From Spirochaetales bacterium (GTDB taxonomy: Bacteria; Spirochaetota; Spirochaetia; DSM-2461), in the NCBI GenBank assembly GCA_016936295.1, contig JAFGYD010000215.1, positions 1-64,000 on the forward strand: a stretch of DNA of 64,000 nt. The letters run 5' to 3'. The first letter of the stretch is position 1; each line of letters starts with the position of its first letter. The notes beneath the pieces are model-generated. The model saw nothing but the letters and a program-made list of their open reading frames with translations, had not been told where the DNA came from and ran no database searches. Shown here piece after piece: positions 6,494-61,599 of the stretch. Both the position numbers and the translations under genes were made by a program.

Positions 6494-6501
6494 GAGGATA
6501 T

Positions 6502-7734: not shown

Positions 7735-7743
7735 GGAGTTTAT

Positions 7744-9494: not shown

Positions 9495-9514
9495 AAATGT
9501 TTATGGGATGATGT

Positions 9515-10774: not shown

Positions 10775-10783
10775 GAGAATTTT

Positions 10784-12007
10784 GTGAAACTTTGGAATAT
10801 CGCTTTAAGAAATATAAGCAGAAATAAAAAAAGATCTATTCTTTCCATAATCTCCACAGCAATTGCAACATTTTCAATTGTTGCACTTTTTTCATATATA
10901 GAAGGAATGGAAAAAGATATGAAGAATATTGCTTTTAACTACGATTCTGGTGAGATCCTAATTAGAAATAGTGAATTTGATGATAAGATTTACAGCTTGG
11001 AAAAATCGGTTTCTAATTATTCTAAAGTATTAAATATATTAAAAAAAGAGATGCCATATTTAGAACTCTCTCCTAGATTAAGATTTCCTTCTACAGTTAT
11101 AAAAGATGATAGAACAAATATATGTTTTGGAGTTGCAGTTGATTTTACTACTGAGATAAAGTACCTAGGTTTAAACTCAAAAATAATTGAGGGTGAAATC
11201 CCTAAAAATTCCAGAGACGTTTTAATGGGTATTGGCTTGGCAGAAGAGTTAGGATTAAAAATAGGAGATAAATTTACCCCCATTACAACTACAAAAAAAG
11301 GAGCAAGTTCAGGGATAACCTTTGTTGTTACAGGTTTTGCAAAATTTTCCAGTGGAGCCTTTACTAACAAAACCTTTTTAGTTCCACTAACTGAAATTCC
11401 AGGCATATTAAGAATGGAAGGGGAAATATCTGAAATCTTAATAAAAAATGTTAAAGAAGATTTATTGAATGAAGAGACAAAACATATAAATAATATTCTT
11501 AAAAATAATAATTTTAACGATATTGCAGCAACTCCTTGGACTAAGATTGGATTAGGAGCTGCAATGTTAAAAATGGCCGATGTTTCGTACTCATTAATGG
11601 CTATTTTCTTCTTTATACTATCTAGTACAGTTATTGCAAATACAATGCTTATGGTAGTATTTGAGAGGAAAAAAGAGATAGGAACCTTAACAGCAATGGG
11701 TATGACCTCGTTAGAAGTTACAAGGCTCTTTTTTATTGAAGCCTTCTATTTAGGAATTTTAGGTGCATTTTGGGGTTTGATTTTAGGAATTATAATAGTT
11801 CTTCCTCTATCTTATTTTGGTCTTGATATGTCAGAAATGGGAGAAAATATAGATTTTGGAGTTTCCTGGATTATATATCCTCAGTTATCTCCCAAATCTA
11901 CCCTTCTTGTTTTCATCTACTCTGTATTTGTTGCATCCTTTATATCTTTTTTCCCTTCAAAATCGGCTTCGAAGGTAGACCCGGCAGTTGCATTAAGATC
12001 TATTTAG
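10784..12007 (+). CDS. ABC transporter permease, FtsX/LolCE-like (permease B, copy 2)
   Basis: GTG start; strong colinear similarity to 6502-7734 (NKKRSILS, SRDVLMGIGLAEELGL, ANTMLMVVFERKKEIGTLTAMGMT). Confidence 0.92.
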   Translation: MKLWNIALRNISRNKKRSILSIISTAIATFSIVALFSYIEGMEKDMKNIAFNYDSGEILIRNSEFDDKIYSLEKSVSNYSKVLNILKKEMPYLELSPRLRFPSTVIKDDRTNICFGVAVDFTTEIKYLGLNSKIIEGEIPKNSRDVLMGIGLAEELGLKIGDKFTPITTTKKGASSGITFVVTGFAKFSSGAFTNKTFLVPLTEIPGILRMEGEISEILIKNVKEDLLNEETKHINNILKNNNFNDIAATPWTKIGLGAAMLKMADVSYSLMAIFFFILSSTVIANTMLMVVFERKKEIGTLTAMGMTSLEVTRLFFIEAFYLGILGAFWGLILGIIIVLPLSYFGLDMSEMGENIDFGVSWIIYPQLSPKSTLLVFIYSVFVASFISFFPSKSASKVDPAVALRSI

Positions 12008-28183: not shown

Positions 28184-29962
28184 TTATTTTTCTTTAACAG
28201 GAATTTCTATTTTTAATGAAAGTTCTCTTATTTGTTCCGGATCCACTTCAGCAGGGCAATCATCCATTGGTGACATTGCCATTGCATTCTTAGGGAATGG
28301 AATAACTTCCCTAATAGACTCTTCTCCAGCCATAATCATAACAAGTCTGTCTAATCCTGGAGCAATACCTCCATGTGGTGGAGCACCAAATTTGAAAGAC
28401 TCTAAAAGGAACCCGAATTTTTCCATTGCTTCCTCTTCTTTTATCCCTACAATAGAGAAAATTCGTTTCTGGATTTCAGGGTCATGAACCCTTATAGAAC
28501 CGGAAGCAAGCTCGTAACCATTTAAAACAAGGTCGTATAAGTCACCTTTTACTTCTCCTGGGTTCTCTTCCATAGTATCGAGGTAGTGATCTTGTGGCAT
28601 ACTGAAAAGATGGTGACAAGCTTCCCAGTTTCCTTCATCATTTTTCTCAAATAGAGGGAAGTCCACTATCCAGCAGAAGTGGAATGTTGAAGGATCATAT
28701 AGTTTTCTATCAATTCCTATCTGTTTTCTTACAGCACCTAAAGATGTAACCGAAGTCTTCCAGTCTGCACCCATTAGAAGAATAAGGTCGTTATTTTTTG
28801 CTGAAAGTCCATTGCAAATTTCTGTAAATTGGTTATTGTAAAATTTAGCAACTCCACCATCAAAACCTTCTGGAGTTACCTTCATCCATGCAAGACCATT
28901 AGCTCCATACTGTTTTGCTATCTCTTCTAGCTCCGTAATTTTTTTTCTGGAGTAATCTGGAGCAGCATCTGGAACAACAATAGCTCTTACAGCACCTTTA
29001 TTATCCAACACAGTTTTAAATACAGAAAAGTCAGAATTAGGTACATAAGATGAAAAATCCTGTAACTTCATATCAAATCTTAGTTCAGGTTTATCACTAC
29101 CATATGTATTCATTGCATCCATATATGTTAAACGTTGAAATTGAGTAGGTAGTTCAATATTCATAGTTTTTTTGAAAATATGACACATTAAACCTTCGGT
29201 CATTTTATAAATATCGTTGGCAGATACAAAGCTTTGTTCTATATCAATTTGGGTAAATTCCAGTTGTCTATCACCCCTTGCATCTTCATCTCTGTAGCAT
29301 CGTGCAATTTGAAAATATTTATCAAAGTTTGATACCATTAATATTTGTTTGTATAGCTGTGGTGATTGTGGTAAAGCAAAGAACTTTCCAGGATGAATTC
29401 TTGAAGGAACCAGGAAATCTCTAGCTCCCTCGGGAGTTGCTTTAATTAGTGTTGGAGTTTCAATCTCCATAAAACCTTGACTATTAAGATATTCCCTTGT
29501 TGCATAAGCGACATCACTTCTTAATTTAATTCTTTTTTGCATACCATCGGATCTTAAATCCAAATATCTATATTTTAATCTAAGAGTTTCGTTTGCTTTA
29601 CTTTCTTCTTCAATCATGAAAGGGAGCGTGTCACATTTATTTAATATAACTATCTCTTTAGCAGAAACCTCTATTTCTCCTGTTTTCATATCAGGATTAA
29701 TCATGCTATCTGGTCGTTTTCTAACAATACCTTTAATTGCTACACAGTATTCATATTTTAAATCATTAGCAATATTCAGAATGTCTTCTGAAGCGTCTTC
29801 ATCTATAACAACCTGGGTTACACCATATTTGTCCCTTAAGTTTATAAAATGAACACCACCATGGTTTCTGTTTTTATGAACCCATCCGTTTAATATAATT
29901 TCTTTACCATCAAATTCTTTTCGAAGTTCTCCGCATGTTACGGTTCTCTGCATCTCTTTCAT
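28184..29962 (-). CDS. aspS: Aspartyl-tRNA synthetase
   Basis: Class II synthetase motifs: QSPQLYKQILM, FQIARCYRDEDARGDRQLEFTQID, GIAPGLDRLVM. Confidence 0.96.
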   Translation of the reverse strand: MKEMQRTVTCGELRKEFDGKEIILNGWVHKNRNHGGVHFINLRDKYGVTQVVIDEDASEDILNIANDLKYEYCVAIKGIVRKRPDSMINPDMKTGEIEVSAKEIVILNKCDTLPFMIEEESKANETLRLKYRYLDLRSDGMQKRIKLRSDVAYATREYLNSQGFMEIETPTLIKATPEGARDFLVPSRIHPGKFFALPQSPQLYKQILMVSNFDKYFQIARCYRDEDARGDRQLEFTQIDIEQSFVSANDIYKMTEGLMCHIFKKTMNIELPTQFQRLTYMDAMNTYGSDKPELRFDMKLQDFSSYVPNSDFSVFKTVLDNKGAVRAIVVPDAAPDYSRKKITELEEIAKQYGANGLAWMKVTPEGFDGGVAKFYNNQFTEICNGLSAKNNDLILLMGADWKTSVTSLGAVRKQIGIDRKLYDPSTFHFCWIVDFPLFEKNDEGNWEACHHLFSMPQDHYLDTMEENPGEVKGDLYDLVLNGYELASGSIRVHDPEIQKRIFSIVGIKEEEAMEKFGFLLESFKFGAPPHGGIAPGLDRLVMIMAGEESIREVIPFPKNAMAMSPMDDCPAEVDPEQIRELSLKIEIPVKEK

Positions 29963-29986: not shown

Positions 29987-31624
29987 CTATTTAAAGTCTA
30001 GAATTATTGCACCATCCCAGGACTCCGGAGGGTTAATTAAAAATTTTTTACATCTGTTTATATATATTTCCACAATTCTGTCGGAGGGTAACAAGCTGTA
30101 ACATATATTAAAATAGTCCAGAGCAAAGTTCCAATTCCCCAGGGAAAACATTTTTATACCTTTATTGTAAGTATGTATAAAATTCTCAGGATAAAAATTT
30201 AAATCTTCTGCAGAGTATATAGTAGTTGCTTCTTTTTTCCCCTGAACCATAACTGTGTCCACAATTCTAAACTCCGTTTTGGAATTTTTTCTCTTACAAG
30301 CCTCAAAAACTGTATTTGAAACCAAGATATTTACATTGTAATACTTACATAAAGACTCTAATCGGGCTGCTAGATTAATTGTATCACCTATAGCTGTATA
30401 ATCGAAATTATCTTCGGAGCCAATATTTCCAATAATTGCTTTACCAATATGTATTCCTATTCCTATTTTATAATTTTCTGGACATGACTCAACAAACTCA
30501 ATCATCTCTTTTGCCGCATTTAAAGCCCTTTCTTCGTTATCATTAAAACTTAAAGGTGCTCCAACCATTGCAAAAACTGCATCTCCAATAAATTTGTTAA
30601 TCTCTCCTCCATAGGATTTAATTCTGGTGGATAATCCTGAAAAATGTTTATTGAGAAAGTTAACTACACCTTCTGCAGAAAGGGTTTCTTCTAACTCATT
30701 AAATTTCTTAATATGAGAAAATATAACGGCTACTTCTCTTTTTTCTCCAGTCATTAAACTCTTTGTTGTTTTTCTATTTAATAAATCATCTACAACTTTT
30801 TCTGGAAGAAAATTTTTAAAAAGATAGTTTAACTTTTGAGCTTTCTCTACGTTGTAATTATATCTGTAGTTTTCGTGTAAAATTTTAGTAATAACATCTA
30901 ATGCAAATTTTAGATTATATTCTTCCTCTTTTGATTCAGATAAAAATTCTATAAAAATTGAAATATTATCCTTCTCTATTTTAAATTTTTGATACTCATT
31001 CTTATAATTATTAAACTTTTCAAAAGTTTTTTTATAATTTTTATTACCAAAATTAATATTTAGACTTGATAGAGTAAATGACGAAAAGAGTATAGTAAAA
31101 AAACTTTCAATTAGTATATCCATTGTTTCGAGAATAAGAAAATTTTCTAAAAGTTTTTTTACAAAGATGTTTTGAATGTCTCTATTTTGGTAAATTTTAT
31201 CAATATCAAGAAGAATTTCAGTTTCACTTTTTGAAATACTTTCAGGAGTTGAGATTCCATCTATTTTGCTGTATTTATCAACTTCGTTAATAATTTTTTG
31301 TGCAAAATTTTCATCTCTTCGAATAAAGGAATCTGCTTTATTAAAATAAATATCATTCATTGTATTTGTTACTGTAGAATACATAATTACAGGTATAGAT
31401 GCTAAATATTTATCATTTTTAATATATTCTAGGGCATCGGCTCCCCTTAAATCCTTTAATAACGAACTAATAATTAAAAGATTGGGAGGATTTTTATGTA
31501 TCTCTATAATGCCTTCTATGGCATGGCTAAAGCACTCTACTTCAAAATCTTCTTTTGACTTTAATTCAGTAATTAGAGTTTTTGATAGGGATTTTGAATT
31601 TTCAAGACAGATAATTTTAATCAT
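29987..31624 (-). CDS. Pseudo-receiver + class III nucleotide cyclase (C2-like: metal Asp-1 replaced by His)
   Basis: Cyclase core VAVIFSHIKKF..INKFIGDAVFAMVGAP..DYTAIGDTINLAARLES; N-terminal receiver-like fold with PNLLIISSLL. Confidence 0.88.
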   Translation of the reverse strand: MIKIICLENSKSLSKTLITELKSKEDFEVECFSHAIEGIIEIHKNPPNLLIISSLLKDLRGADALEYIKNDKYLASIPVIMYSTVTNTMNDIYFNKADSFIRRDENFAQKIINEVDKYSKIDGISTPESISKSETEILLDIDKIYQNRDIQNIFVKKLLENFLILETMDILIESFFTILFSSFTLSSLNINFGNKNYKKTFEKFNNYKNEYQKFKIEKDNISIFIEFLSESKEEEYNLKFALDVITKILHENYRYNYNVEKAQKLNYLFKNFLPEKVVDDLLNRKTTKSLMTGEKREVAVIFSHIKKFNELEETLSAEGVVNFLNKHFSGLSTRIKSYGGEINKFIGDAVFAMVGAPLSFNDNEERALNAAKEMIEFVESCPENYKIGIGIHIGKAIIGNIGSEDNFDYTAIGDTINLAARLESLCKYYNVNILVSNTVFEACKRKNSKTEFRIVDTVMVQGKKEATTIYSAEDLNFYPENFIHTYNKGIKMFSLGNWNFALDYFNICYSLLPSDRIVEIYINRCKKFLINPPESWDGAIILDFK

Positions 31625-31626
31625 TT

Positions 31627-33186
31627 TTAATCTATTACAGAGTGTAAACTATACTCTTTCCCATCTATATTTTTTTTCTCTAAAAAAGTTCCATTACAAA
31701 ATTTTGCAACTTCTCCTGTTATAAGTATTGGTGTCTTATATTTTTTTGTTAGACTTTCAAGTTCTTCTGCAACCGATGCTATTTCTCCAATAGAAGTATA
31801 TGCCTTTTTTTCTTTAGAACCGATATTTCCAACTATTGAGTCTCCTACATGTAGACCAATTCCAATGTTAAACCCTATAGGAGGTAGAACTATATTATTC
31901 GTATTTACTTGTGAAATAGAACTTATCATTTTTTTTGCAGCATTTACCGCTCTTTGTTCTATATTATCCATGTTTTCCGGTGCTCCAAAAATTGCCATAA
32001 TAGCATCACCTATAAATTTATCAATAATACCACCTTCGTCTTTTATACATTTTACCATAATATTAAAGTAGTTATTTAGTAAGCTTACAACATTTTCGGC
32101 ACTGTTCTTTTCCGAAATTGTAGTAAAAGATCTAATATCAGAAAATAGAATACATATTCTTCTTACTTCTCCAGTTCTATTAATTTCTCCCTGGGCAAGT
32201 AACCTTTCTATCAGTTTTTTAGGTATAAATTTTGAAAAAACATTTAATGTGTTCTCATTTCTATTCTGGGCTATTCTGTATTCAACCCCATTATGTAGTA
32301 GTGATCCAATACTATAAAAGTGTTCAGTTAAAATCTCTCTAATCTCACTATTGTTAAAATAGTTATTAATAAAGTTTCCAACATGTATGGTTCCTATAGT
32401 TTCTCCATTAGGATTGTATAAAGGTGAGTAAAAATATGAACTAATTTTGTAATTTTCTAAATCCATTGAATTAAACTCTTGGGATGAAATATTGCTTATA
32501 AATGTGTTCTTTATTCCCTCTAAATTTATACCATGAAAATTCTCGTAATGATTATGTAGGCAGAAGTTATTAAAATCATCAAAACTTACTTTTTTAATTT
32601 TATTAGAAATCCAGGAGTAAGATTTTGTCTCTCTACCTTCTTTTAGTATAATAATTATTATATCATTAGGTGTAATTGTGTTTAATGACTTAACTAAATA
32701 AGAGATGGTTTTTTCAATAGATTCAATTTCATACCCAGCATTCAAAAGATAGTTATTTATAGTATTCTGTCTTGAGTTGTGGCTAAAAACAAGTTTTGTT
32801 ACAATTTCAATTTCTGTTGTTTTATTATATGGTTCTCTTCTCTTGCTCTCCATGTTTTGTTTAGCAAAAAAGTCTTGGATATATTCCGGTGTAAATTGAC
32901 TATATGTCACATAGTCATTGTAATTAGTAAGTTTGAATTGAAGTAGATCAAAGTTCCTTATATATTTAGCCACTATAACTATTGGAATATTAATTAAGCA
33001 TGGGATGTTGTTTATTAATCTAAGCAACTGAAGGATATTACTACTATTATCCTCTCTATCAATGCAGATCATCCCTATGTTTTTAAATATCTTTGTTGTT
33101 AATACATTGAAATCAGGTTTTATTCGCTTGTATGGATGTTCTGTTTCAATATTTTTAGTATTGCTAATAATAAGAATTTCATTCAT
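31627..33186 (-). CDS. Sensor-like N-terminus + class III nucleotide cyclase (C1-like: transition-state Asn/Arg replaced)
   Basis: Cyclase core ICILFSDIRSFT..IDKFIGDAIMAIFGAP..AYTSIGEIASVAEELES; central GAF-like region. Confidence 0.88.
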   Translation of the reverse strand: MNEILIISNTKNIETEHPYKRIKPDFNVLTTKIFKNIGMICIDREDNSSNILQLLRLINNIPCLINIPIVIVAKYIRNFDLLQFKLTNYNDYVTYSQFTPEYIQDFFAKQNMESKRREPYNKTTEIEIVTKLVFSHNSRQNTINNYLLNAGYEIESIEKTISYLVKSLNTITPNDIIIIILKEGRETKSYSWISNKIKKVSFDDFNNFCLHNHYENFHGINLEGIKNTFISNISSQEFNSMDLENYKISSYFYSPLYNPNGETIGTIHVGNFINNYFNNSEIREILTEHFYSIGSLLHNGVEYRIAQNRNENTLNVFSKFIPKKLIERLLAQGEINRTGEVRRICILFSDIRSFTTISEKNSAENVVSLLNNYFNIMVKCIKDEGGIIDKFIGDAIMAIFGAPENMDNIEQRAVNAAKKMISSISQVNTNNIVLPPIGFNIGIGLHVGDSIVGNIGSKEKKAYTSIGEIASVAEELESLTKKYKTPILITGEVAKFCNGTFLEKKNIDGKEYSLHSVID

Positions 33187-35200
33187 TAATACTTCCTAGG
33201 AGTTCTTTTACGTTTTTAAGCAGCTTATCTCTATTAAAATTAGATTTTAAATAGACTGCTTTTGCCCCTATATCCATGAATTTATCAATTTCCTTATGGG
33301 TTTTTGAAGATGATAGAACAATAATTGGGGTATCCCCATACCCCTTTTCTTTTTTTAGGTTTTCAATAAATGTTGCACCATCCATTCTTGGCATATCAGA
33401 ATCTGTAATTATTAAGTGGAAATAATCTTCCTTTATCTTTTGCAATGCATCAATACCATCGTTAGCCATTTCTACAGAGAAACCACTTCTTGAAAACATA
33501 TTTTGTACAATGCTTCTGTTTATTGAACTATCGTCAATTATTAAAATCTTTTTGTAATCGACACTATCTTTTGCATATCTTGTATTAAATTCTATATTTC
33601 TTATACATTTGAGTTGATCTGTAATTTTAGGAATATAGAGAATATTTACAATATTAAATTCCTCATCAAAAACCACCCCTTGTATTGAACTTAAACCCTC
33701 AATATTATTGGGAAGTCTTTTGTAAATTGCAGAGGAGTGGTATAAAATTTCATCTATAACTATACCAATACTTTCATTGTTGATTTTGCATATAATAATA
33801 AAAAGTTTATTTGCCGGTTTTGATGTTTTATCATCCAAAATACCAGAAAGAGGATAAATAGGAACAATTTCATCCCTTAGTTTAACAGCTTGCCTGGTAA
33901 CAAGGTCTAATATATTTTCTTTTTGAACAGTAATGATTTCATTTATATAGGCCGATGGGATAAAAAACTTTTCTCCACCAGAAACTATAAAATATCCTGT
34001 TATTGTAGTTAGTGATTTAGGAACTGTAATTTTTACCATTACTCCAGAACCTCTATCTGAAAAGACGTTAATAGAACCCTTAATATTTTTTATGCAATCT
34101 TCAGCATTAGAAAGCCCCATCCCTTGAAATTTTTTACTTGATGAGACTCCCTCCATAAATGCAAATCTTAAAAGCTCATTTTCTGTTAATTCCAATATTC
34201 CTTCTTTATCGTGGGGGAAAATCTCAATACTTCTCTTTCTTATTTTTTCAAAGTCTATACCGCATCCATTATCACTTATTTCAACTGTAATTTTTCCACT
34301 TTCCTCTATATATTCAATATTAATTTCTCCTGTAGTCTCAATGCCATGGATAATACTATTATTGATTATATTTATTATTGGGGACTGAATATTTTGAAGT
34401 ATAAGTTTATCAATTATTATAACCTTATTAGGTAGATTAACTTTTATATCTTTACCAGATTCTTTTATAGTTTTGTTAACACCCTCTAAGATATCATTAT
34501 GTATAATTGATATAGGAAGCATTCTAAGGGCTAAAATTTCATCTTGAAGATTATTAGATCCTAACTCTATTTTAAGAATTTGAGATTTAATACTGTTGTT
34601 AATCTCGTTGTATGTTCTTTGATGTTTTGGTTCTATTTCTATCTGTTCAATTTTTTCTATAGTTGTTTTTAGTTGGTACTGATTTAATATTAATTCATTT
34701 ATATTTTTAATCATTGAATCTATTTTATTTAATGTAACACTTACTTCTTTTGAACTATCTAATTTAATCTCCCCGGAATTTATTGAAATTTTACTTTGAG
34801 TTTTTATAATGTCATTAACATAGGATTTATTTATATCTGTTGGTTCTTCGGAAGCAATACCACTATAGGTTTCCATAATATGCTTTATAGAGAAATTATT
34901 ACTCTCCTTATTATTGGTTCCTAAAATTTTTTTAATATATTCACATGTTACAAGAAGAACCTGTTTATGTTTTGCAGAGAATGAAAATCTTCCGCCATGT
35001 AGACCATCTAGTACCTTTAGTAATCCATGGAGTAACTCTTCTATTTTGGGGTAGTTATAAACCTTGGATATACCCATAATTGTAACAATTATTGTGTGTA
35101 TTTTCTTTAAATCAACTTTTTCCTGGTCTTTAATATTAATTAAGACAGTAAGTTCTCCAATATAATCGAGAATTTCTTGTTCGAAGTTATTTTCGGGCAT
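33179..35200 (-). CDS. CheA-like histidine kinase with C-terminal receiver domain
   Basis: Degenerate HPt (KKIHTIIVTIMGI), HATPase (NNSIIHG, SDNGCGIDF, GMGLSNAEDC), CheW-like domain, intact REC (IIDDSS..IITDSDMPRMDG..LKS). Confidence 0.88.
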   Translation of the reverse strand: MPENNFEQEILDYIGELTVLINIKDQEKVDLKKIHTIIVTIMGISKVYNYPKIEELLHGLLKVLDGLHGGRFSFSAKHKQVLLVTCEYIKKILGTNNKESNNFSIKHIMETYSGIASEEPTDINKSYVNDIIKTQSKISINSGEIKLDSSKEVSVTLNKIDSMIKNINELILNQYQLKTTIEKIEQIEIEPKHQRTYNEINNSIKSQILKIELGSNNLQDEILALRMLPISIIHNDILEGVNKTIKESGKDIKVNLPNKVIIIDKLILQNIQSPIINIINNSIIHGIETTGEINIEYIEESGKITVEISDNGCGIDFEKIRKRSIEIFPHDKEGILELTENELLRFAFMEGVSSSKKFQGMGLSNAEDCIKNIKGSINVFSDRGSGVMVKITVPKSLTTITGYFIVSGGEKFFIPSAYINEIITVQKENILDLVTRQAVKLRDEIVPIYPLSGILDDKTSKPANKLFIIICKINNESIGIVIDEILYHSSAIYKRLPNNIEGLSSIQGVVFDEEFNIVNILYIPKITDQLKCIRNIEFNTRYAKDSVDYKKILIIDDSSINRSIVQNMFSRSGFSVEMANDGIDALQKIKEDYFHLIITDSDMPRMDGATFIENLKKEKGYGDTPIIVLSSSKTHKEIDKFMDIGAKAVYLKSNFNRDKLLKNVKELLGSINE

Positions 35201-36024
35201 TAAGAATTCCCCCTTTTTATAAAATAAAATGATTTTCCATTTTGAAGAAGTTCCAATTTGGGGTGGGATGTTGTTGCAGTATTCGAACTGGAAACAAAGA
35301 GGTAGCCATTATCATCTAATACTTCAACTGCCTTATCTATAATTAATTCCCTGATTTCTGGTTCCATATAGATTAGAACATTGCACAAAAATATTATTTT
35401 AGGTTTAGTTTTAAAAAGAGGTTTATAATCATCGATGATTAAATTGAGTTTTACAGTATGTATAGAGTCCAGAATTTTTTTATTTAAAGAGAAATTTTTT
35501 CCATCGGTAGTACTGCAATTATGTAGCAGATAGTGAAAGTCTTTTCCATCTTCTCTAAAGGAATTGGGAGTATATATGTTTTTATTAATTTGATTCATGG
35601 AGTTAATGTCAATATCTGTAGCGATAACTGGTCTGTTTATATAATTTGAACTATTCCAGAATTTATTAATTAGCAGAGATAGGGATATTGCTTCCTCTCC
35701 TGTGGAGGCTGCACCACTCCAGACTGTAGGTGGTGTTGAATACCTCTCTCTCATTTCGGGGAGAATTATGCTATCTAAAAGTTTAAAATATTTTTCTTCT
35801 CTAAAGAAATACGTTTCATTAATAGTAATGGCATTTATTAATTGATAAAATTCCGTTTCACTTTTTTTTATTATTTGAATATATCTATCCATAGAATTTT
35901 CAAGATTTTCAAGTTTGGATTTTAAAAATCTTTTGGTAGCATTGATATTTGATTCAGGTACAACTATTCCTGTTTCATTTAAAATAAATTGGCTAAGAAT
36001 ATTGAATTCATCTGCTTCATTCAT
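35200..36024 (-). CDS. cheR: Chemotaxis protein methyltransferase CheR
   Basis: NETYFFRE, WSGAASTGEEAISL, IIFLCNVLIYM. Confidence 0.92.
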   Translation of the reverse strand: MNEADEFNILSQFILNETGIVVPESNINATKRFLKSKLENLENSMDRYIQIIKKSETEFYQLINAITINETYFFREEKYFKLLDSIILPEMRERYSTPPTVWSGAASTGEEAISLSLLINKFWNSSNYINRPVIATDIDINSMNQINKNIYTPNSFREDGKDFHYLLHNCSTTDGKNFSLNKKILDSIHTVKLNLIIDDYKPLFKTKPKIIFLCNVLIYMEPEIRELIIDKAVEVLDDNGYLFVSSSNTATTSHPKLELLQNGKSFYFIKRGNS

Positions 36025-36995
36025 TTTATTTCCTTTTGGGTGACACTAATTAAATATTCTGCAATTTTGTCCAGCGGTAGTATAACACTAGCGGCTCCTA
36101 GTTCGATTGCAGCTTTAGGCATTCCAAATACTGTAGATGTTGCTTCATCCTGTACAATTGTTTTTCCCCCGTGTTTTAGAATTTCAACACAACCTTTAGC
36201 GCCATCTCTTCCCATCCCAGTCAATAGAACACCTAAAAGGTTTTCTTTGTAAGATTTTGCTGCAGTAGTAAATAGAACATCAACTGCGGGTTTTTGAAAT
36301 TCAACCTTATCCTCATCGGTATAGTAAAATACTTTATTTCTAACAGAGAGGTGCTTTCCTTGTTCTCCCATTATTATTTCTCCTGGTAGGGGAGTGTCTT
36401 TATCCCTGGCCATTCTTACTTTAAGTTTACAACTTTTGTTAAGCCAGGTAGCCAAACCCTCTTCATGTCCCTCTTCCATATGCTGAACTATGGATATTGG
36501 AATTGAAAAATCTTCGGGCAGTTCATCTAAAACTTTTTTTAATGCATTTGGGCCTCCTGTAGAGGAACCAATTACTATATGTTCAATTTTAGATTTAGAT
36601 ATTTTCTGGTGAACCTTTCTGGTTTTTTCATGTTTTTCTGCAGTACTAACTAACTCTTTAATTAGCTCATTATGATAATTTTTATCTGATAATTTATCCA
36701 TTTGTGGCTTAGGTATAATTTTATCTGGTACTGCTTCTCCCAGAGTTTCAGAACCACCCATAACTACAATAGGTATATGAGTATCTTTTTGTAGTGATAA
36801 AATTATATCTTTCTCAGATGCGTGTGACAGGTTTTCTCCTAATATAACCAGATCTGTGTCGCAGGTTTTGGCTATTCTTATAATTTCTTCACCATCCGAT
36901 GTTAAGCATATTATATCGTTTCCGGCTTCGGTTAATATTTCACTTAGCATATTTCTTAAAATTACAGAGTTATTACCAATTATTATGTTCATCAT
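36021..36995 (-). CDS. cheB: CheB-type protein-glutamate methylesterase with degenerate receiver
   Basis: Methylesterase triad in GSSTGGP, VQHM, LTGMGRDG; receiver lacks the acidic residues. Probable ATG near 36995 or 36992; ORF track start 37013. Confidence 0.9.
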   Translation of the reverse strand: MMNIIIGNNSVILRNMLSEILTEAGNDIICLTSDGEEIIRIAKTCDTDLVILGENLSHASEKDIILSLQKDTHIPIVVMGGSETLGEAVPDKIIPKPQMDKLSDKNYHNELIKELVSTAEKHEKTRKVHQKISKSKIEHIVIGSSTGGPNALKKVLDELPEDFSIPISIVQHMEEGHEEGLATWLNKSCKLKVRMARDKDTPLPGEIIMGEQGKHLSVRNKVFYYTDEDKVEFQKPAVDVLFTTAAKSYKENLLGVLLTGMGRDGAKGCVEILKHGGKTIVQDEATSTVFGMPKAAIELGAASVILPLDKIAEYLISVTQKEIK

Positions 36996-37524
36996 TTCCT
37001 CCGGTTTGACCAATTGAATTTAAAAGAATCTTGTCTATGTCTATAAAATATTGAATTCTGTCATTTTCGAAAAAACAGTACTGTATTCCCTTTTCTTCGA
37101 ATTGATCTTTATATATTTTAGATAGGGATTTAAAGGCATGAATACTATTTTTTTTTATTTCAGATTTACTTGTAATAGAGAATGATATTAGTTCTCTTGT
37201 AATAGATTCATTGCACTTACTAAAGATTTTTTTTAATAATTCCTGGGTTTTAATAGAGAACTGATCTATCTTGGAGATTATGCAGATCTTTGATAATGAA
37301 TCGATCTCAATTTTAAAAATATCTTCAAGGTATTGATCCAGGTTAAAATTAAGGATTTTCTCCTGTCCATATTCAATTACATCCTTAAGATACTTTGAAT
37401 CTATATCTACATCCATTTTTTTGTTGAAGGAGACACTACTGGAAAACCTGTTTCTATCAACAATAAAATCTTTATATTTATAATGTATAAATAAAAAGTC
37501 CCTATAGACACTATTTGATATCAT
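36973..37524 (-). CDS. Uncharacterised protein embedded in the chemosensory operon
   Basis: ORF of 183 aa overlapping both neighbours; no recognised domain. Confidence 0.65.
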   Translation of the reverse strand: MISNSVYRDFLFIHYKYKDFIVDRNRFSSSVSFNKKMDVDIDSKYLKDVIEYGQEKILNFNLDQYLEDIFKIEIDSLSKICIISKIDQFSIKTQELLKKIFSKCNESITRELISFSITSKSEIKKNSIHAFKSLSKIYKDQFEEKGIQYCFFENDRIQYFIDIDKILLNSIGQTGGNDEHNNW

Positions 37525-37960
37525 GTTTTATTTTCCTAATAACAGATTCAATTTCCAGAATTGGAATTTCCACCCCTTCTATGGAGATAGAGTTGTTAAA
37601 AAAATCTCCACCTTCGGAGTGGGAAGTTATAGGATGAATTTCTTTTTGATCAATATTAACGATCTTAGAAATTTCAGTTATAATTAAGGCCAATTTATCG
37701 GTTTCATCCCTAATAATAATATATTTCTCGGCTTCTAATCGCTCTTGTTCAAAAAGAACCTTTATATCAACAACAGTGTATGGTTCTCCATGCCTATTAA
37801 TTAGACCACGGATATAACCAGGGATGAAAGGGAGATAGTATACTTTATACCCAATTATTATCTCTCTAACCATATTCCCCGGTAGAGCATAAACCTTTTG
37901 ATCTATATTAAAAATTACAAACTTAACTAACTCAATATTTTCGCTGGTTTTATCACTCAA
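37511..37960 (-). CDS. cheW: CheW-like adaptor
   Basis: KFVIFNIDQKVYALPGNMVREII..PFIPGYIRGLINRHGEPYTVVDIK. Likely TTG start at 37960 overlapping the MCP stop; ORF track start 38032. Confidence 0.85.
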   Translation of the reverse strand: MSDKTSENIELVKFVIFNIDQKVYALPGNMVREIIIGYKVYYLPFIPGYIRGLINRHGEPYTVVDIKVLFEQERLEAEKYIIIRDETDKLALIITEISKIVNIDQKEIHPITSHSEGGDFFNNSISIEGVEIPILEIESVIRKIKHDIK

Positions 37961-39959
37961 GATCTGTCCCTTCCATTTTATTTTCCAATTTATACTTGGA
38001 TAAGATATTTTCAAGCTTTTCAGAAACACCAACTAAAGAATCAGATGCACCTGCTGTCTCTCTAGTTGCCCCTGCAATATTATCAACACCTTCAGATATC
38101 TGTTTAATTGCGATTAATATCTGCTCAAATGTCACAACTTGCTGGTTAATAGATTTTGAAATTTGTTTAGTAGAGTCGCTAGAGGTTTCTGCTGTACTTA
38201 AAATATCTTTAAACATTGAATTTATGTCTTTTGTAAGATTATTACCCTCTTTTATTTTTTCTGTTCCATCTTCTGAGGTTAGAATTAATTGGTCTGAAGA
38301 TTTCTGAATTTCTGTAATTCTCTCTTTTATTTCATTTGTAGAGTGTACCGTACTGTCTGCTAGTCTTCTAATTTCTGTAGCTACAATTTGGAAATTCTTA
38401 CCAGCTTCTCCTGCTGCAGATGCTTCTAGCTCCGCATTAAAAGCAATTATTTTTGTTTGATCTGCAATTCCATTTATCATGTTAACTATATTCCAAATGT
38501 TATCTATCTGCTCACTTAGAAATTTAATACCATTTATTGTAACTTTATTAGCATCATTTATCTCTTCCATTTTAGTAATGCTTTCTGTTACCTTTTCAAA
38601 TCCGCTTTTTACAATTGTTTGAGTATTATCTGCAATATTTGTTATTTCCTGAATTTTTTTCTCAATGGATTTTGAAAGCTGATCTACATCTTCCATTGTG
38701 CTAACAATTTCTTTTACTGCGGCTGCCTGCTGATTAGCTATAGAAGAAGTCTCTTGGGAGGATGAAGATAGATTTTGAATAAGTTCAACAATTTTATCTG
38801 TTATAGCTCTAAGGTTATTTAGAACTTCTTTATATCCACCAATGAAATTATTAAAATCTAATCCCATTATATCAATTTCATCCCTAAAGATTGGGTAGGC
38901 TGTAGATTGATAGGTTGGAGTAAGGTCTCCTTTATTGGAAATTTCAAAAATAGTTTGAAATTTATTTATTTTATTTGAAATCATTTTTCCAATTATTATT
39001 GATAATCCAAGAAATATAATAATTGCTACTATACAACCAATAACAATGAGTAGATTTACAAAATTTAAAGGCTCATACAGTATCGATTTTACAACACCAA
39101 CGCAAACAAGCCAATCAAGTTCTTCTACATAGGAAAAATACATTATTCTCAGTGTTGGTTCTTCTTCTTCTGTGTTTGCCCACAAATATTCCAATCTTCC
39201 ATTTTTTTGTAGCAACATTTTTTTAACAAAATCGTAATTACTTATATTTTCGTTCTCTTTTTCTTTATGGGCAATTAGAGTTCCTGTTCCATCCAGTACA
39301 TAGGAATAGCCTCCAAAAAGTGTTCCTACATTTAGTAATTCCTCTTTAAAATCGTTAATATCTATTAAGCTTTTAAACTCAGATTTATAACTTGCCGGCC
39401 AGATTATTAAATCCCATGGTTCAAAATATGTAATATATCCTACTTTTTTTCTTGGGGCTGTTTCATCGGTATTCTGCCAGTCGTACTCAAAATAACCCTC
39501 TTTGTCTTTTGAATTTAACGATTCCTGAACTTTAGGCCAAAAAGAAGCTCCTGAAACATTAACACCTTCGGATTTAGGATGAACTGCAAGAACACCATTC
39601 CCGGAAACTATTGCTAAATATCCAGTATCTCCAACTTTACCAAATTGTGGATCGAGTACAATTTTTCTAATCTCTTCCATAGCTTGGTCTTTAGTTAATT
39701 CTCCCTGTAAAAACTTGTTATAATAGTGTTCAACAATGTTTTTACCCTTATCACTTGCAGTTTTAAGAGTCTTTTTTGTCGAAACATCGATAATATTAAC
39801 TAGCTCTTGCCTTGCCATTATAGAACCTGATTTAAGATGCTCTTCCTGCAGTGTTAAAATTGTATTTTTAACAACTAATTGAAGAATAAATCCTACTAAT
39901 ACAAAAATTACTAATGATGCTCCTCCAAAAATATAAATCATCTTACTGCTTGTTTTCAT
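37953..39959 (-). CDS. Methyl-accepting chemotaxis protein with tandem Cache-type sensor
   Basis: N-terminal TM, extracytoplasmic region with GDTGYLAIVSGNGVLAVHP and SYVLDGTGTLIAHKE, HAMP, signalling region NGIADQTKIIAFNAELEASAAGEAGKNFQIVATEIRRLADST. Confidence 0.93.
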   Translation of the reverse strand: MKTSSKMIYIFGGASLVIFVLVGFILQLVVKNTILTLQEEHLKSGSIMARQELVNIIDVSTKKTLKTASDKGKNIVEHYYNKFLQGELTKDQAMEEIRKIVLDPQFGKVGDTGYLAIVSGNGVLAVHPKSEGVNVSGASFWPKVQESLNSKDKEGYFEYDWQNTDETAPRKKVGYITYFEPWDLIIWPASYKSEFKSLIDINDFKEELLNVGTLFGGYSYVLDGTGTLIAHKEKENENISNYDFVKKMLLQKNGRLEYLWANTEEEEPTLRIMYFSYVEELDWLVCVGVVKSILYEPLNFVNLLIVIGCIVAIIIFLGLSIIIGKMISNKINKFQTIFEISNKGDLTPTYQSTAYPIFRDEIDIMGLDFNNFIGGYKEVLNNLRAITDKIVELIQNLSSSSQETSSIANQQAAAVKEIVSTMEDVDQLSKSIEKKIQEITNIADNTQTIVKSGFEKVTESITKMEEINDANKVTINGIKFLSEQIDNIWNIVNMINGIADQTKIIAFNAELEASAAGEAGKNFQIVATEIRRLADSTVHSTNEIKERITEIQKSSDQLILTSEDGTEKIKEGNNLTKDINSMFKDILSTAETSSDSTKQISKSINQQVVTFEQILIAIKQISEGVDNIAGATRETAGASDSLVGVSEKLENILSKYKLENKMEGTDLE

Positions 39960-40096
39960 ATGTGCCCCTATAACTATTATTATTTAATTATTGTGTGGTC
40001 AAAACTGTAAGTCAATAAATCTTTCCTAATATTATGACTTCTATTGTTGCCCAATAGTTAAAAAATTATTATTATAAAATTATAGAAAATTAAATA

Positions 40097-55577: not shown

Positions 55578-56120
55578 ATGAACTTAGCAAATAAATTAAC
55601 CTTAAGCAGAATATTTATGATTCCAATTTTCATATATTTTTTGCAATTAAATACAGACAATGGAATCCTTATTTCGGGTGTTGTATTTATTCTCGCATCA
55701 ATTACAGATTTTTTTGATGGTTACATTGCCAGATCTAGAAATATGGTAACAAAATTTGGGAAATTTATGGATCCTTTAGCTGATAAATTGTTAGTAATTT
55801 CTGCATTTATATATTTTGTAGCCCTGGGAATGGTTCCTGCTTGGGCCGTTATTCTTATTATTTCTAGAGAATTAATTGTATCAATTTTTAGAGCTATTGC
55901 AGCTGCAGATGGTGTTGTTATCGCCGCAGGATCACTTGGTAAATTTAAGACTGTAAGTCAAATGATTACAATAATTTCATACTGCCTACTTCCTCTTTAT
56001 AGAGACTATGTGCTTTTCCCTCTTCCTTTAATTTTATTCTATATTTGTACTTTTTTCACTATACTTTCGGGAATTGACTATATAGTAAGAAATAAAAATG
56101 TATTAAAAGATGTAAATTAG
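55578..56120 (+). CDS. pgsA: CDP-diacylglycerol-glycerol-3-phosphate 3-phosphatidyltransferase
   Basis: CDP-alcohol phosphotransferase motif DFFDGYIARSRNMVTKFGKFMDPLADKLL. Confidence 0.94.
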   Translation: MNLANKLTLSRIFMIPIFIYFLQLNTDNGILISGVVFILASITDFFDGYIARSRNMVTKFGKFMDPLADKLLVISAFIYFVALGMVPAWAVILIISRELIVSIFRAIAAADGVVIAAGSLGKFKTVSQMITIISYCLLPLYRDYVLFPLPLILFYICTFFTILSGIDYIVRNKNVLKDVN

Positions 56121-57190
56121 AAATTATTTTCCCTTACATATCTTTCTATTTCTCCTGCAATTTTATTTAGGGGTAGTACAATATTTGCTGCCCCGTATTC
56201 TACGGCTTTCCCTGGCATACCCCATACAATACTCGATTCCTGATCTTGAACAATGTTATAACTTCCGTTATCTTTCATCTCTTTCATAGCCTTTGAACCA
56301 TCGTCTCCCATTCCTGTAAGCATAACGCCAATAACATTTCGTCCTGCATAATTAGCAGCCGAGTTAAAAAGAACTGTAACAGAAGGGCAGTGATAATGGA
56401 CTTTGGGCCCTTTTCTTAATTTTATATAGTATTTTGCTCCTTTTGATTCAATAGAGCAATGCTCCTCACCAGGCGATATGTATACAAAACCTCTTTGTAT
56501 TCTATCTCCATCTTTGGCAAGTTTTACTGTAAGTTTTTTTACGGCATTATTTAATCTATCAGCAAATTGCTGTGAGAAATTAAGGGGTAGGTGTTGCACA
56601 ATCACAATTCCGGGTATATCTGCTGGTAAATCTTCCAATATGTCTTTAATTGCAGTTGTACCCCCAGTGGATGATCCAATAACAATAAGTTTTTCAGTTG
56701 TGTGTCTATTACTTGTAAATTCCTTAGATGACTCTTCACTTTTTCTTTCAATCTTGTTCTCTTGAGACTTATACTGTTTGATAAGTTTATTTTTTACGGT
56801 ACTAGATCCTGCGTTAAGAATTGCTTGTACAATATCCCCCTTTAAATTTTCTAATTGAAGTAGATCATCGGGTTTAGCAAGAACATCAAAAGCTCCTAGT
56901 TCAAAAGCTTGAAGTGTTATATTTGCGTTCTTTTGTGTTAAAGAAGATAGAATTATAACTGGAGTTGGTTTTGCCTGCATAAGTTTGTCTAAGAATGTTA
57001 ATCCATCCATTCTAGGCATCTCAATATCTAGTATTATTACATCTACATCGTATTTTTTTAACTTATCCACCGCAAATATAGGATCAAATGCTGTGTCTAC
57101 CAAATGCATTCCTGGCGATTCATTTATAATATCAGTTAGAACTCTTCTAACTAATGCCGAATCATCTACAACTAAAACTCTAATACTCAT
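56117..57190 (-). CDS. cheB: CheB methylesterase (canonical receiver)
   Basis: VVDDSALVR..VIILDIEMPRMDG; GSSTGGT; VQHLP; LTGMGDDG. Confidence 0.95.
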   Translation of the reverse strand: MSIRVLVVDDSALVRRVLTDIINESPGMHLVDTAFDPIFAVDKLKKYDVDVIILDIEMPRMDGLTFLDKLMQAKPTPVIILSSLTQKNANITLQAFELGAFDVLAKPDDLLQLENLKGDIVQAILNAGSSTVKNKLIKQYKSQENKIERKSEESSKEFTSNRHTTEKLIVIGSSTGGTTAIKDILEDLPADIPGIVIVQHLPLNFSQQFADRLNNAVKKLTVKLAKDGDRIQRGFVYISPGEEHCSIESKGAKYYIKLRKGPKVHYHCPSVTVLFNSAANYAGRNVIGVMLTGMGDDGSKAMKEMKDNGSYNIVQDQESSIVWGMPGKAVEYGAANIVLPLNKIAGEIERYVRENNF

Positions 57191-57192
57191 TT

Positions 57193-58011
57193 TTAAATCC
57201 TTTTATATATTGTTTTCCCTACTAGTGAAAACATGTCAGAAATACCAGCTAGTGTTTCACTATGGCCTAAAATAAGGTACCCACCAGGTTTTATATATTT
57301 ATGTAATTTATTTACTAAATTAATTTTTGTCTCTGAATCAAAGTATATAATTACGTTTCTAAGAAATATAACATCCATCAATGGTAGGTTATATGTATTG
57401 TCACTAAGATTTAGTCTAAAAAACTTAATTTTTTGTATTAATTCTGGTTTAATTAATACTAATCCTTCTTTTTCATTGTTGCCTTTTAGGAAATATTTAT
57501 TTCTTATTGGTGTAGGAATATTTTCAATCTCATTGATATCGTAAACTCCTGTAGATGCAGTTTTTAACACATTTCTTGAGATATCTGAAGCAAACAATGA
57601 GTAATTTAATTTTTTATTATTACCTAGTTCGTACTCTTTGATTGTCATTAGGATCGAATATATCTCCTGCCCTGTGGAAGATGCTGCTGACCATATATTT
57701 AAAGAATTTTGATTGTTTGGTAATATCTCTTCTCTTAAAAAATCGAAATGATGAGACTCTCTAAAAAATAGAGTGTAGTTAGTTGATATAATATCTATCA
57801 TTGTTTGGAATTCTTCACCATAATTATCTCTTTTTAAGAGCTCTATATATTCTGAAATTGTAGGTATCTCTAATTTTCTAATCCTTTTGGAAAGTCTGGA
57901 TAAAACAAGAGATTTCTTTTTTTCTGTTAGGTTTATATTTGCATAGGAGTAAACTTCTTTTGAAATGTAGTTAAAATCTTCGTCGGTTAGATGATACATA
58001 AATCTCCTCAA
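57193..58011 (-). CDS. cheR: CheR methyltransferase
   Basis: FFRESHHFDFLRE, WSAASSTGQEIYSI, VIFLRNVIIYF. Confidence 0.94.
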   Translation of the reverse strand: MRRFMYHLTDEDFNYISKEVYSYANINLTEKKKSLVLSRLSKRIRKLEIPTISEYIELLKRDNYGEEFQTMIDIISTNYTLFFRESHHFDFLREEILPNNQNSLNIWSAASSTGQEIYSILMTIKEYELGNNKKLNYSLFASDISRNVLKTASTGVYDINEIENIPTPIRNKYFLKGNNEKEGLVLIKPELIQKIKFFRLNLSDNTYNLPLMDVIFLRNVIIYFDSETKINLVNKLHKYIKPGGYLILGHSETLAGISDMFSLVGKTIYKRI

Positions 58012-58616
58012 TAAAGTGTAATATCTGGTTTGAATTTTAATTCTTTAAGTTTTTCTTTATACTTTAGCTCTTCTTTTATTACACGGTCTGTAATTATTTT
58101 CTTAACAAAAACAGAGCTTGTTCCTGTTAAAAAGTAAATTCTTCTCCCATAAGTATCGCTTACGCTTTCATTTTCAATCGTTATTTGTTCTGTATTTAAA
58201 TAGGATTTTGCAAATTTTATATTTTGCTCTCCTATAGATGGTTTTTTAGTCATGTTGCTAAGTATTTGTCCCCCACCAAAGATTTTTGCCCGTAAATTCC
58301 TTCTCTCTGCCCCTTTCTTCTGCATCATATAAATTAATACATCCATAGACTCAATACCATACATCATAGCTTTATCTGATATATGTGATATATTTAAATG
58401 AAGATCTTTAGTTATTAATTCATTTATATTTAAAGATCCCTCTGGCAACATAAAATGATTCATCCCTGCAATATTATTCTCTAAGTCGTATAAACACACA
58501 GCTACACAAGATCCAAGGATTGTTGTTATTATCTCCTTAGAACTACTTATATAATACTCTCCTGGGTAGATAGTTATAACTTCGCTTTTAAATCTATGAT
58601 CATAGGATTTATGCAT
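58008..58616 (-). CDS. cheD: CheD chemoreceptor deamidase
   Basis: TILGSCVAVCLYD, GMNHFMLPE, AKIFGGGQ. Confidence 0.92.
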   Translation of the reverse strand: MHKSYDHRFKSEVITIYPGEYYISSSKEIITTILGSCVAVCLYDLENNIAGMNHFMLPEGSLNINELITKDLHLNISHISDKAMMYGIESMDVLIYMMQKKGAERRNLRAKIFGGGQILSNMTKKPSIGEQNIKFAKSYLNTEQITIENESVSDTYGRRIYFLTGTSSVFVKKIITDRVIKEELKYKEKLKELKFKPDITLY

Positions 58617-60606
58617 TTATTAAACTTGGTATATCAACAATTAATGCAACTGTTCCATCTCCTAATATTGTTGCACTAGTTATATGATCCACTTTGCTAA
58701 AGTTTTTTTGCAGAGATTTTAATACTACCTGATACTGTTCTAAAACATAATCCACTAATATAGCAACTTTCAATCCAGCTGCATTTACAACTATTATTTG
58801 ACCTTCTGCTGGATCATTTATATATTGGGGAATATTGAAAACTGAGTGAAGTCTTAATAATGGAATATAGCTCCCCCTAAAAAGTACAACTTCTTTACCC
58901 CCGGATATAGTTTTCAGGTCTTTTTTCTCAGCCTTAAAAATTTCTAAAATTGATAATGTAGGAATGATATATTTTTCTTCACCAACAGAAGTCAGCATTC
59001 CGTCTAGTATAGCTAGAGTTAATGGTAAATTGAGTTTAAAGGTTGTACCTTCGCCCTCTATACTTGCTAGGTCTATTGTTCCGTGAAGTTCATTTATTGT
59101 ACTTTTTACCACATCCATACCAACTCCACGTCCAGATATATCAGTTACAACTTCTGCAGTTGAAAATCCAGGGTGAAAAATTAGTGATAATATTTCTAGA
59201 TCTGTTAATTTTGTCTCTGGTGTAATTATCTTACGTTCAATAGCCTTTGCAATTAGTTTTTCCCTATTGATACCTTTCCCATCGTCTGAAACTTCAATAA
59301 CTACTTTGCCGCTTTCCAGATATGCAGAGAGTTTTAATAAGCCCTCTTCCGGTTTTCCAGCATTTATTCTCTCCTCTGCTGTTTCAATTCCGTGATCGAT
59401 ACAATTTCTAACCAAGTGTTTCATTGGGTCATTTAGTTTTTCAATCATATTTTTATCAAGTTCTGTATCATGGCCTGAAAGTTCAAGCTTTATCTTTTTC
59501 CCCATATCGTTAGCCATATCTCGAACAACCCGTTTAAACCTGTCAAAGGTACTTCCTAAATTCATCATTCGTAGTGATGTGACCTGTTCCTGAAGTAGTT
59601 TATTCTGATTTCTAAGCGCATCCGTAACGGTTTCTAAACTGTCTGGTATAATATCGCTGTACTCCTCGACTAGAGTATTAAGTCGTGCTTGAGAAATTAA
59701 AAGTTCACTAACCGTATTAAATATCATTTCCAGTTTCTCTGTAGGAACCCTAATGTAGGATGATTCTGTTATTATAGGAGTTTTTACCAAATCGGATTCT
59801 GTTGTATTAGTAGTTTCATTTTTCACTATATTATAGTCTAAAATTGTTTTGTTATTTATTGTGTATTTAGATATAAGTTCTTTCTGATCTAATATATCCG
59901 ATAGGTTTACGAATTCAAGTTCCGATTCATCTATAACAAAACAAAAAATGTCTTTTAATTCGGCTATACTCTTGTTTGTTGAAAAAAATAGTTTCCAAGA
60001 CATATAGAATTTTTCTGGATCAAAATCTTCAGGATCGTAATCTTCGGTAAAATATTGATATATATCTATAATTTGCCCAATTTTTTTTAAGTCTGAAATG
60101 AACATTAAAGGATCTATCCCTACAAGGAAAATATTTGAGAAATAATGAAGTTTAATATAATATATATCCTCGTCTACCTTTTTCTCAATTTTTACTTCTG
60201 AATCATCAATTTTTTTTTCATTTTCTTTTAAAAGCATGTTGTTAATAGTTTCTTCTAAATTCTTTGTATTCACACCTTTTTCTGGACTTTCATTATTTTT
60301 TATATTTTCTAGCATTACCCTAATTATATCCATAGAGTTAAGAATTACAGATATAACTTCCTTTTCTATTTTTATTGACCCATTTCTGATGCTTTCAAAA
60401 AGATCTTCTACTATATGGGTAAAATCTTTCATATGGGTGAATCCTGCTAAACCAGCCCCACCTTTGATTGAGTGCATAGCTCTAAAAGCATCATTTATTT
60501 TAGTGTTATCATCAGGATTTTCTTCGATGTAAATAATCAAGGATTCCAGGACTTGTAAATTCTCATCTGCTTCTTGTATAAATATATCATGTAGTACATT
60601 TTCCAT
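58609..60606 (-). CDS. cheA: CheA histidine kinase
   Basis: HPt AMHSIKGGAGLAGF; LVRNCIDHGIE; GRGVGMDVVKS; C-terminal CheW-like domain. Confidence 0.96.
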   Translation of the reverse strand: MENVLHDIFIQEADENLQVLESLIIYIEENPDDNTKINDAFRAMHSIKGGAGLAGFTHMKDFTHIVEDLFESIRNGSIKIEKEVISVILNSMDIIRVMLENIKNNESPEKGVNTKNLEETINNMLLKENEKKIDDSEVKIEKKVDEDIYYIKLHYFSNIFLVGIDPLMFISDLKKIGQIIDIYQYFTEDYDPEDFDPEKFYMSWKLFFSTNKSIAELKDIFCFVIDESELEFVNLSDILDQKELISKYTINNKTILDYNIVKNETTNTTESDLVKTPIITESSYIRVPTEKLEMIFNTVSELLISQARLNTLVEEYSDIIPDSLETVTDALRNQNKLLQEQVTSLRMMNLGSTFDRFKRVVRDMANDMGKKIKLELSGHDTELDKNMIEKLNDPMKHLVRNCIDHGIETAEERINAGKPEEGLLKLSAYLESGKVVIEVSDDGKGINREKLIAKAIERKIITPETKLTDLEILSLIFHPGFSTAEVVTDISGRGVGMDVVKSTINELHGTIDLASIEGEGTTFKLNLPLTLAILDGMLTSVGEEKYIIPTLSILEIFKAEKKDLKTISGGKEVVLFRGSYIPLLRLHSVFNIPQYINDPAEGQIIVVNAAGLKVAILVDYVLEQYQVVLKSLQKNFSKVDHITSATILGDGTVALIVDIPSLINA

Positions 60607-60607
60607 A

Positions 60608-60979
60608 CTAAGCTCCTATAAAACGTTTTATAAGTTCTAGTAAAGTAGACGGCTCAAATGGTTTTACAATCCATCCACTTGCACCGGCTTTTTTACCTTC
60701 AATTTTCTTTGATTTTTGAGATTCAGTTGTTAAAAATAATATAGGTGTGTATTTATAAGTTTCTATTTTTCTAACATTGTTTATTAATGATATTCCATCC
60801 ATGTTTGGCATGTTTATATCAAATATAAATAGATCTATATCACCCTTGAAATTCTGTATTTTTTTTAATGCATCAACACCGTCGGAAGCTAATTGAACAT
60901 TAAAGTTTTCATTTTTAAGAGTTAATTCAATTGATGCACGAGCTGTAGGGGAATCATCTACAGCGAAAATAGTTTTCAA
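60608..60979 (-). CDS. cheY: CheY-like response regulator
   Basis: FAVDDSPT..LFIFDINMPNMDG..WIVKPF. Confidence 0.95.
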   Translation of the reverse strand: MKTIFAVDDSPTARASIELTLKNENFNVQLASDGVDALKKIQNFKGDIDLFIFDINMPNMDGISLINNVRKIETYKYTPILFLTTESQKSKKIEGKKAGASGWIVKPFEPSTLLELIKRFIGA

Positions 60980-60992
60980 AGATTTTCTCCTT

Positions 60993-61577: not shown

Positions 61578-61599
61578 AATAATTCCTTCCGCCCTTTAT

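Follow-up and report, generated by a model that had tools for sequence, protein, structure and literature searches.

The stretch of DNA examined here, hereafter the window, covers positions 1 to 64,000 of contig JAFGYD010000215.1 from a Spirochaetales bacterium (assembly GCA_016936295.1), a spirochaete metagenome-assembled genome (MAG) of 2.85 Mb and 81% completeness that we refer to as G000. Our subject is a run of eight genes on its minus strand, in which neighbours overlap or lie 2 nt apart. They encode, in this order, a Cache chemoreceptor (MCP2), the coupling protein CheW2, a small protein designated Unk, CheB2, CheR2, CheA2 with a C-terminal receiver, and two class III nucleotide cyclases, CycB and CycA (Table 1). 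A preliminary description of the window had reported this tightly packed arrangement, and every gene position and domain named in it was borne out by our domain calls, made with Pfam profiles at their curated cut-offs. The gene set of a chemosensory array (MCP, CheW, CheA, CheB and CheR) is complete, and the operon contains no flagellar gene and no separate CheY-like regulator. Pilus genes are also absent from it, and CheA2 has no detectable HPt domain, which sets the operon apart from the Pil-Chp (Tfp class) systems, where a multi-HPt CheA goes together with type IV pili.

Table 1. Genes and features of the chemosensory-cyclase operon in the window
Feature	Coordinates	Strand	Evidence
MCP2 chemoreceptor, dCache sensor and MCP signalling domain	37953..39959	-	Pfam dCache_2 2.3e-33, MCPsignal 6.3e-30
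CheW2 coupling protein	37511..38032	-	Pfam CheW 3.3e-17
Unk, small protein in a conserved slot	36973..37524	-	orthologues at the same slot in relatives
CheB2 methylesterase	36021..37013	-	Pfam CheB_methylest 2.3e-61
CheR2 methyltransferase	35200..36024	-	Pfam CheR 3.6e-28
CheA2 with C-terminal receiver	33179..35200	-	Pfam HATPase_c, CheW, H-kinase_dim, Response_reg; no Hpt match
CycB, metal subunit	31627..33186	-	Pfam Guanylate_cyc 2.7e-20
CycA, transition-state subunit	29987..31624	-	Pfam Guanylate_cyc 7.6e-22; Response_reg 9.4e-6, below cut-off
Possible operon promoter, TTGACT-17-AATAAT	39987..40015	-	weak consensus match only

The two cyclases differ in their N-terminal parts. CycB begins with a degenerate receiver-like region followed by a GAF-like region and the class III cyclase domain, and CycA consists of a pseudo-receiver, whose acceptor Asp is replaced by Ser, a linker and the cyclase domain. 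In an AlphaFold2 (AF2) model of CycB (predicted local distance difference test score, pLDDT, 79.7), Foldseek recognised the cyclase fold and matched it to class III cyclases of solved structure, CyaC of S. platensis being the best among the isolated-domain matches.

In class III cyclases, one protomer supplies two metal-binding Asp residues, and the other supplies the base-recognising Lys and Thr together with the catalytic Asn and Arg. The active site is located at the interface, and both protomers contribute to it (PMC3591389, PMC9552081). The window pair divides these residues between its two chains. CycB keeps both metal Asps (D350 and D394), and S471 and E475, the latter preceded by E474, stand in place of the catalytic Asn and Arg; in CycA the first metal Asp is replaced by His304, and Lys, Thr, Asn417 and Arg421 are kept. 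The same division recurs in each of the 13 cyclase pairs that we found. Every CycA has His at the first metal position and retains Lys, Thr, the second Asp, Asn and Arg. Every CycB retains both metal Asps and has lost the catalytic Asn (to Ser, Thr, Gly, Ala, Glu or Arg) as well as the Arg, which became Glu in ten cases and Leu, Gly or Ala in the others, always with a Glu immediately before it. By contrast, relatives with a single cyclase keep every catalytic residue in 38/38 rows (37 distinct), and so do the seven other class III cyclases with readable motifs in the window genome.

Neither CycA nor CycB thus holds the full catalytic set in one chain, as bacterial homodimers do, and the reciprocal split leaves exactly one composite site complete in 13/13 pairs. 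Since each chain keeps what the other has lost, a complete site would form only in a CycA-CycB heterodimer, and these sequences are best read as the two halves of an obligate heterodimer that share a single composite active site. A similar division of residues between subunits renders homodimers of soluble guanylyl cyclase inactive (PMC3591389). The two cyclases listed in the preliminary description are therefore very probably one enzyme. At the dead second site, His of CycA would meet Glu of CycB, swapping the usual Asp/Arg charges, and such an exchange may favour heterodimers. The Lys and Thr of CycA, judged by known specificity residues, point to ATP rather than GTP as the substrate, so that cAMP would be the product. 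Five cyclic nucleotide (cNMP)-binding matches exceed the cut-off in the window genome and could possibly be its readers.

G000 also encodes a protein of 1412 residues (contig C168:27062-28264) in which two class III cyclase domains, both weak, follow one another. Perhaps it represents a pseudo-heterodimer contained in one chain.

Relatives of the operon were collected starting from full-length CycB matches in seven genomes, whose surroundings were then read; wider searches and further regions were added later. The comparison gave a conserved gene order, (MCP)-CheW-Unk-CheB-CheR-(MCP)-CheA-cyclase(s), shared by about 50 operons that represent some 20 spirochaete families across the phylum. Such recurrence means that the arrangement is not due to chance, and the search for conserved neighbourhoods proposed in the preliminary description thus turned out strongly in favour of synteny. 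Most of these operons have one cyclase of about 600 residues, and 13 have the pair, CycB followed by CycA. Within the window's own family the pair occurs in 7 of 26 genomes, and one genome (G280) has both a single-cyclase operon and a pair operon. In 21 single-cyclase operons, a cyclase with an intact N-terminal receiver lies beside a CheA with intact HPt His and N-box. Taken together, these comparisons lend strong support to a link between array and cyclase, and they uphold the part of the preliminary description that proposed a self-contained pathway from ligand to cyclic nucleotide.

MCP2 shares 42–60% identity with its orthologue in five relatives. For three members of other classes of the phylum (L191, L186 and L185) the identity is 56–60%, against 58% for a genome of the same genus; for the family member G004 it is lower, 42%. 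Another genome of the same genus (G001, 96% complete) gave no match. The near-equal identities across classes make horizontal transfer of the operon possible.

To follow the origin of the subunits, we built a tree of cyclase domains with the catalytic columns left out and generic spirochaetal cyclases as the root. All CycA sequences formed one clade (support 100/98) and all CycB sequences another (97/92); two single-copy genes branched next to CycA. Such a topology agrees with a single duplication after which the two copies lost complementary residues. The alternative that the pair arose several times independently finds no support, as CycA and CycB are each monophyletic. An earlier, smaller tree had split CycB weakly, probably owing to long branches.

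The kinase of the window operon is altered as well. In alignments, the HPt His of CheA2 is replaced by Val39 (VTIMG for HSIKG) and the N-box His by Asn, and the Hpt profile, which matches CheA1 of a second che operon in the window at 1.9e-14, leaves CheA2 unmatched. We also considered His35 as a shifted phospho-site, which is unlikely: Val39 aligns at the site and no Pfam Hpt domain is present. CheB2 has kept its esterase motifs and lost the acceptor Asp of its receiver (LVILGENL). A phosphorylatable receiver is likewise missing from the output enzyme, CycA having Ser at the acceptor position and CycB having lost the pocket. In the window genome, CheA2 thus lacks its HPt and N-box His, CheB2 its acceptor Asp and CycA its receiver Asp, and for want of these residues the phosphorelay from CheA to cyclase implied by the preliminary description would be unworkable. 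Judging from these residues, ordinary phosphotransfer cannot be the route in the window, and relatives keep it.

The loss is shared by a defined part of the pair operons. Both CheA His residues are missing jointly in 7 of the 12 assessable ones (G000, G002, G080, G280b, G408, G415 and G435) and both are kept in the other five; the pair operon of G452 was left out of this count, its CheA being cut by the contig end. In the same seven operons the CheB receiver is degenerate, with the acceptor Asp gone in five and the acidic pocket in two, and the esterase motifs stay. An exception is G229, where a single-cyclase operon with an intact kinase has also lost the CheB Asp. A single kinase loss within the pair lineage would suffice, since the seven kinase-degenerate pairs separate from the five kinase-intact ones in the cyclase tree.

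Five operons of gut Treponema (L054-L057 and L178) encode a CheA of only about 500 residues, with no detectable ATPase region (Pfam-checked for one), beside a single intact cyclase. This short CheA has a receiver and a CheW-like domain.

In the light of these comparisons, we consider it rather probable that the operon specifies a sensory array complete in itself, which acts on a single heterodimeric class III cyclase (probably a producer of cAMP) and in which CheA2 is a non-phosphorylating scaffold that signals by contact. The Cache chemoreceptor, CheW2, CheA2 and, probably, a CheW-like Unk would build the array, and CheR and CheB would tune the receptor. A ligand bound by MCP2 would change the state of the array, and CheA2 would pass this change by contact to CycA-CycB, either directly or via its intact receiver. 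Within the enzyme, CycB would give the two metal Asps and CycA the Lys/Thr, the catalytic Asn and the Arg, leaving the symmetry-related second site dead and free for regulation. We are more tentative in going one step further, namely in supposing that an array devoid of phosphotransfer directly gates a separately evolved heterodimeric adenylyl cyclase of the C1/C2 type, whose dead site (CycA His, CycB Glu) either enforces pairing or binds a regulator. Such a system would be the bacterial analogue of the adenylyl cyclases that receptors control in animals.

Several observations weigh against this interpretation. The His at the metal position of CycA might still bind some metal, and a weakly active CycA homodimer is therefore conceivable. 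An Asp aligns at the receiver acceptor column in the window CycB, and also in CycA of six other pairs, in a pocket that is otherwise mostly lost. The window genome is, as stated, an incomplete MAG. Finally, the acceptor Asp of the CheA receiver is kept in 51/51 rows, dead-kinase operons included, a sign that phosphorylation may retain a role at some step; the receiver Lys is missing from G002 only. This conservation also speaks for the main alternative, in which the cyclase is the same heterodimer and is switched when another kinase or HPt protein, CheA1 or a third CheA, phosphorylates the CheA2 receiver. CheA2 itself has the receiver Asp and Lys and retains the N, G1 (Asp) and G2 (Gly) residues of the ATP site; the genome encodes two other CheA proteins, of which CheA1 has intact HPt and ATPase motifs. 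The third, outside the window (contig C89:724-918 of G000), might donate phosphate to the CheA2 receiver. However, no partner kinase is conserved in the operon, and the CheB receiver and CycA pseudo-receiver of the window have no acceptors. We regard control by another kinase as a serious yet rather unlikely alternative to contact signalling.

Much less probable is that the pair has no catalytic role, as a pseudo-enzyme that binds nucleotides or a remnant in decay. In favour of this view, catalytic residues have been lost in both subunits and in CheA2, and the tree branches are long. But the complementary residues are invariant over very divergent pairs, and decay would not spare exactly one composite site. 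In the one close pair that could be tested (G004 vs G009), dN/dS was 0.044 for CycB and 0.054 for CycA, which indicates purifying selection, with dS near saturation. It is slightly less credible still that the two proteins are independent homodimeric enzymes, as the wording of the preliminary description might suggest. Both exceed the curated cut-off of PF00211 by far (78 and 73 bits vs 21.9), but the strictly reciprocal loss in every pair of residues that all 37 distinct single-copy relatives keep leaves no complete homodimer site. That the cyclases merely adjoin the che genes and escape their control is the least plausible option: the coupling is a prediction from comparison, but the order is kept over so many families, the gene ends overlap, and the cyclase receivers of the 21 relatives mentioned above remain intact next to an intact kinase.

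Unk of the window had no Pfam match, its comparison with CheW by hhalign was not significant (probability 3.4), and its AF2 model was poor (pLDDT 44); we accordingly rejected it as a proven CheW. Proteins of termite-gut Treponema at the Unk slot match CheW at 4.6e-7 and 0.0023, and that of L047 does so at 0.03. On the strength of these relatives at the same slot, Unk probably resembles CheW and would be another coupling protein, in degenerate form.

A few further features of the window deserve a comment. CheW2 probably starts at TTG 37960 and CheB2 at ATG 36992. The promoter-like match lies directly upstream of MCP2, and such matches are no commoner here than in shuffled sequence. At the other end, a gene for AspRS (28184-29962, same strand) begins 24 nt past the CycA stop and may be co-transcribed with the cyclase operon. 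The second che operon noted in the preliminary description (56117-62928) is real and comprises MCP, CheW, CheA, CheD, CheR and CheB; the HPt of its CheA (CheA1) is intact, and no cheY was found there either. A run of genes at 5231-12007 includes four FtsX/MacB-type permeases (5231, 6475, 9515 and 10784). A receiver-GGDEF diguanylate cyclase is encoded at 2545-3789, and the window thus harbours both second-messenger systems; a PilZ protein is encoded at 63050-63736. In several relatives a small PilZ-like gene adjoins the operon itself (L049:13678-14073 and L050:890-1297; Pfam 0.0015 and 9e-5), a hint of a link to cyclic di-GMP.

Among known systems, Wsp of Pseudomonas offers a dedicated array that acts on WspR, a receiver-diguanylate cyclase (PMC2270323). 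Here, too, the array would act on a nucleotide cyclase in place of CheY, and the single-cyclase relatives fuse a receiver to the cyclase as WspR does. The window operon differs in that its cyclase is of class III and not GGDEF and consists of a pair, and in the degeneration of both the kinase and the receiver of the cyclase. In the Pil-Chp system, the cyclase CyaB is reportedly encoded elsewhere. Pil-Chp of Pseudomonas aeruginosa is a chemosensory system that raises cAMP, with PilG activating CyaB (PMC12632253). Its signal reaches CyaB by way of a separate response regulator, whereas the cyclase pair described here lies inside the operon, which has no separate regulator of the CheY kind. A receiver on CheA is common in alternative cellular function (ACF) systems, being found in about 35% of CheA (PMC10782961), and the non-flagellar window operon resembles them in this respect. 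According to the same survey, every CheA homologue has P1, P3, P4 and P5 (PMC10782961), whereas P1 of CheA2 is degenerate and the gut Treponema relatives have no detectable P4.

As for the cyclases, the catalytic domain of CyaC, a cyanobacterial receiver-class III cyclase, ranks with the best matches both by sequence and by structure, but CyaC is a single homodimeric chain. To our knowledge, CyaC occurs outside chemoreceptor operons. Activation of CyaC by phosphotransfer is reported in a work cited in PMC1183210. The class III cyclases of bacteria have been described as homodimeric (PMC9552081). The closest likeness to the pair is with C1/C2 of mammalian adenylyl cyclase and alpha/beta of soluble guanylyl cyclase, where two unequal homologous domains divide the active-site residues between them, so that one site is active and the other dead (PMC9552081, PMC3591389). 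In contrast to the mammalian enzymes, the window pair is bacterial, is encoded by two genes, has no membrane anchor in the cyclase, is presumably coupled to a receptor array and probably goes back to a separate duplication. We found no bacterial heterodimeric class III cyclase, CheA-cyclase operon or pseudokinase CheA in the open-licence literature, a scope in which reports in subscription journals could be missed. Overall, arrays with a cyclase output (Wsp and Pil-Chp) and eukaryotic split-site cyclases are known, and it is their combination that is new as far as that literature shows.

If our interpretation is true, a pseudokinase CheA would transmit the output of a chemoreceptor array, a mode of action that we did not encounter in the same literature. 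The roughly 50 related operons include intact single cyclases, split pairs and cases of kinase loss. They make the step from a homodimer to an obligate heterodimer testable with existing genes, and likewise the step from a phosphorelay to a possibly phosphate-free array.

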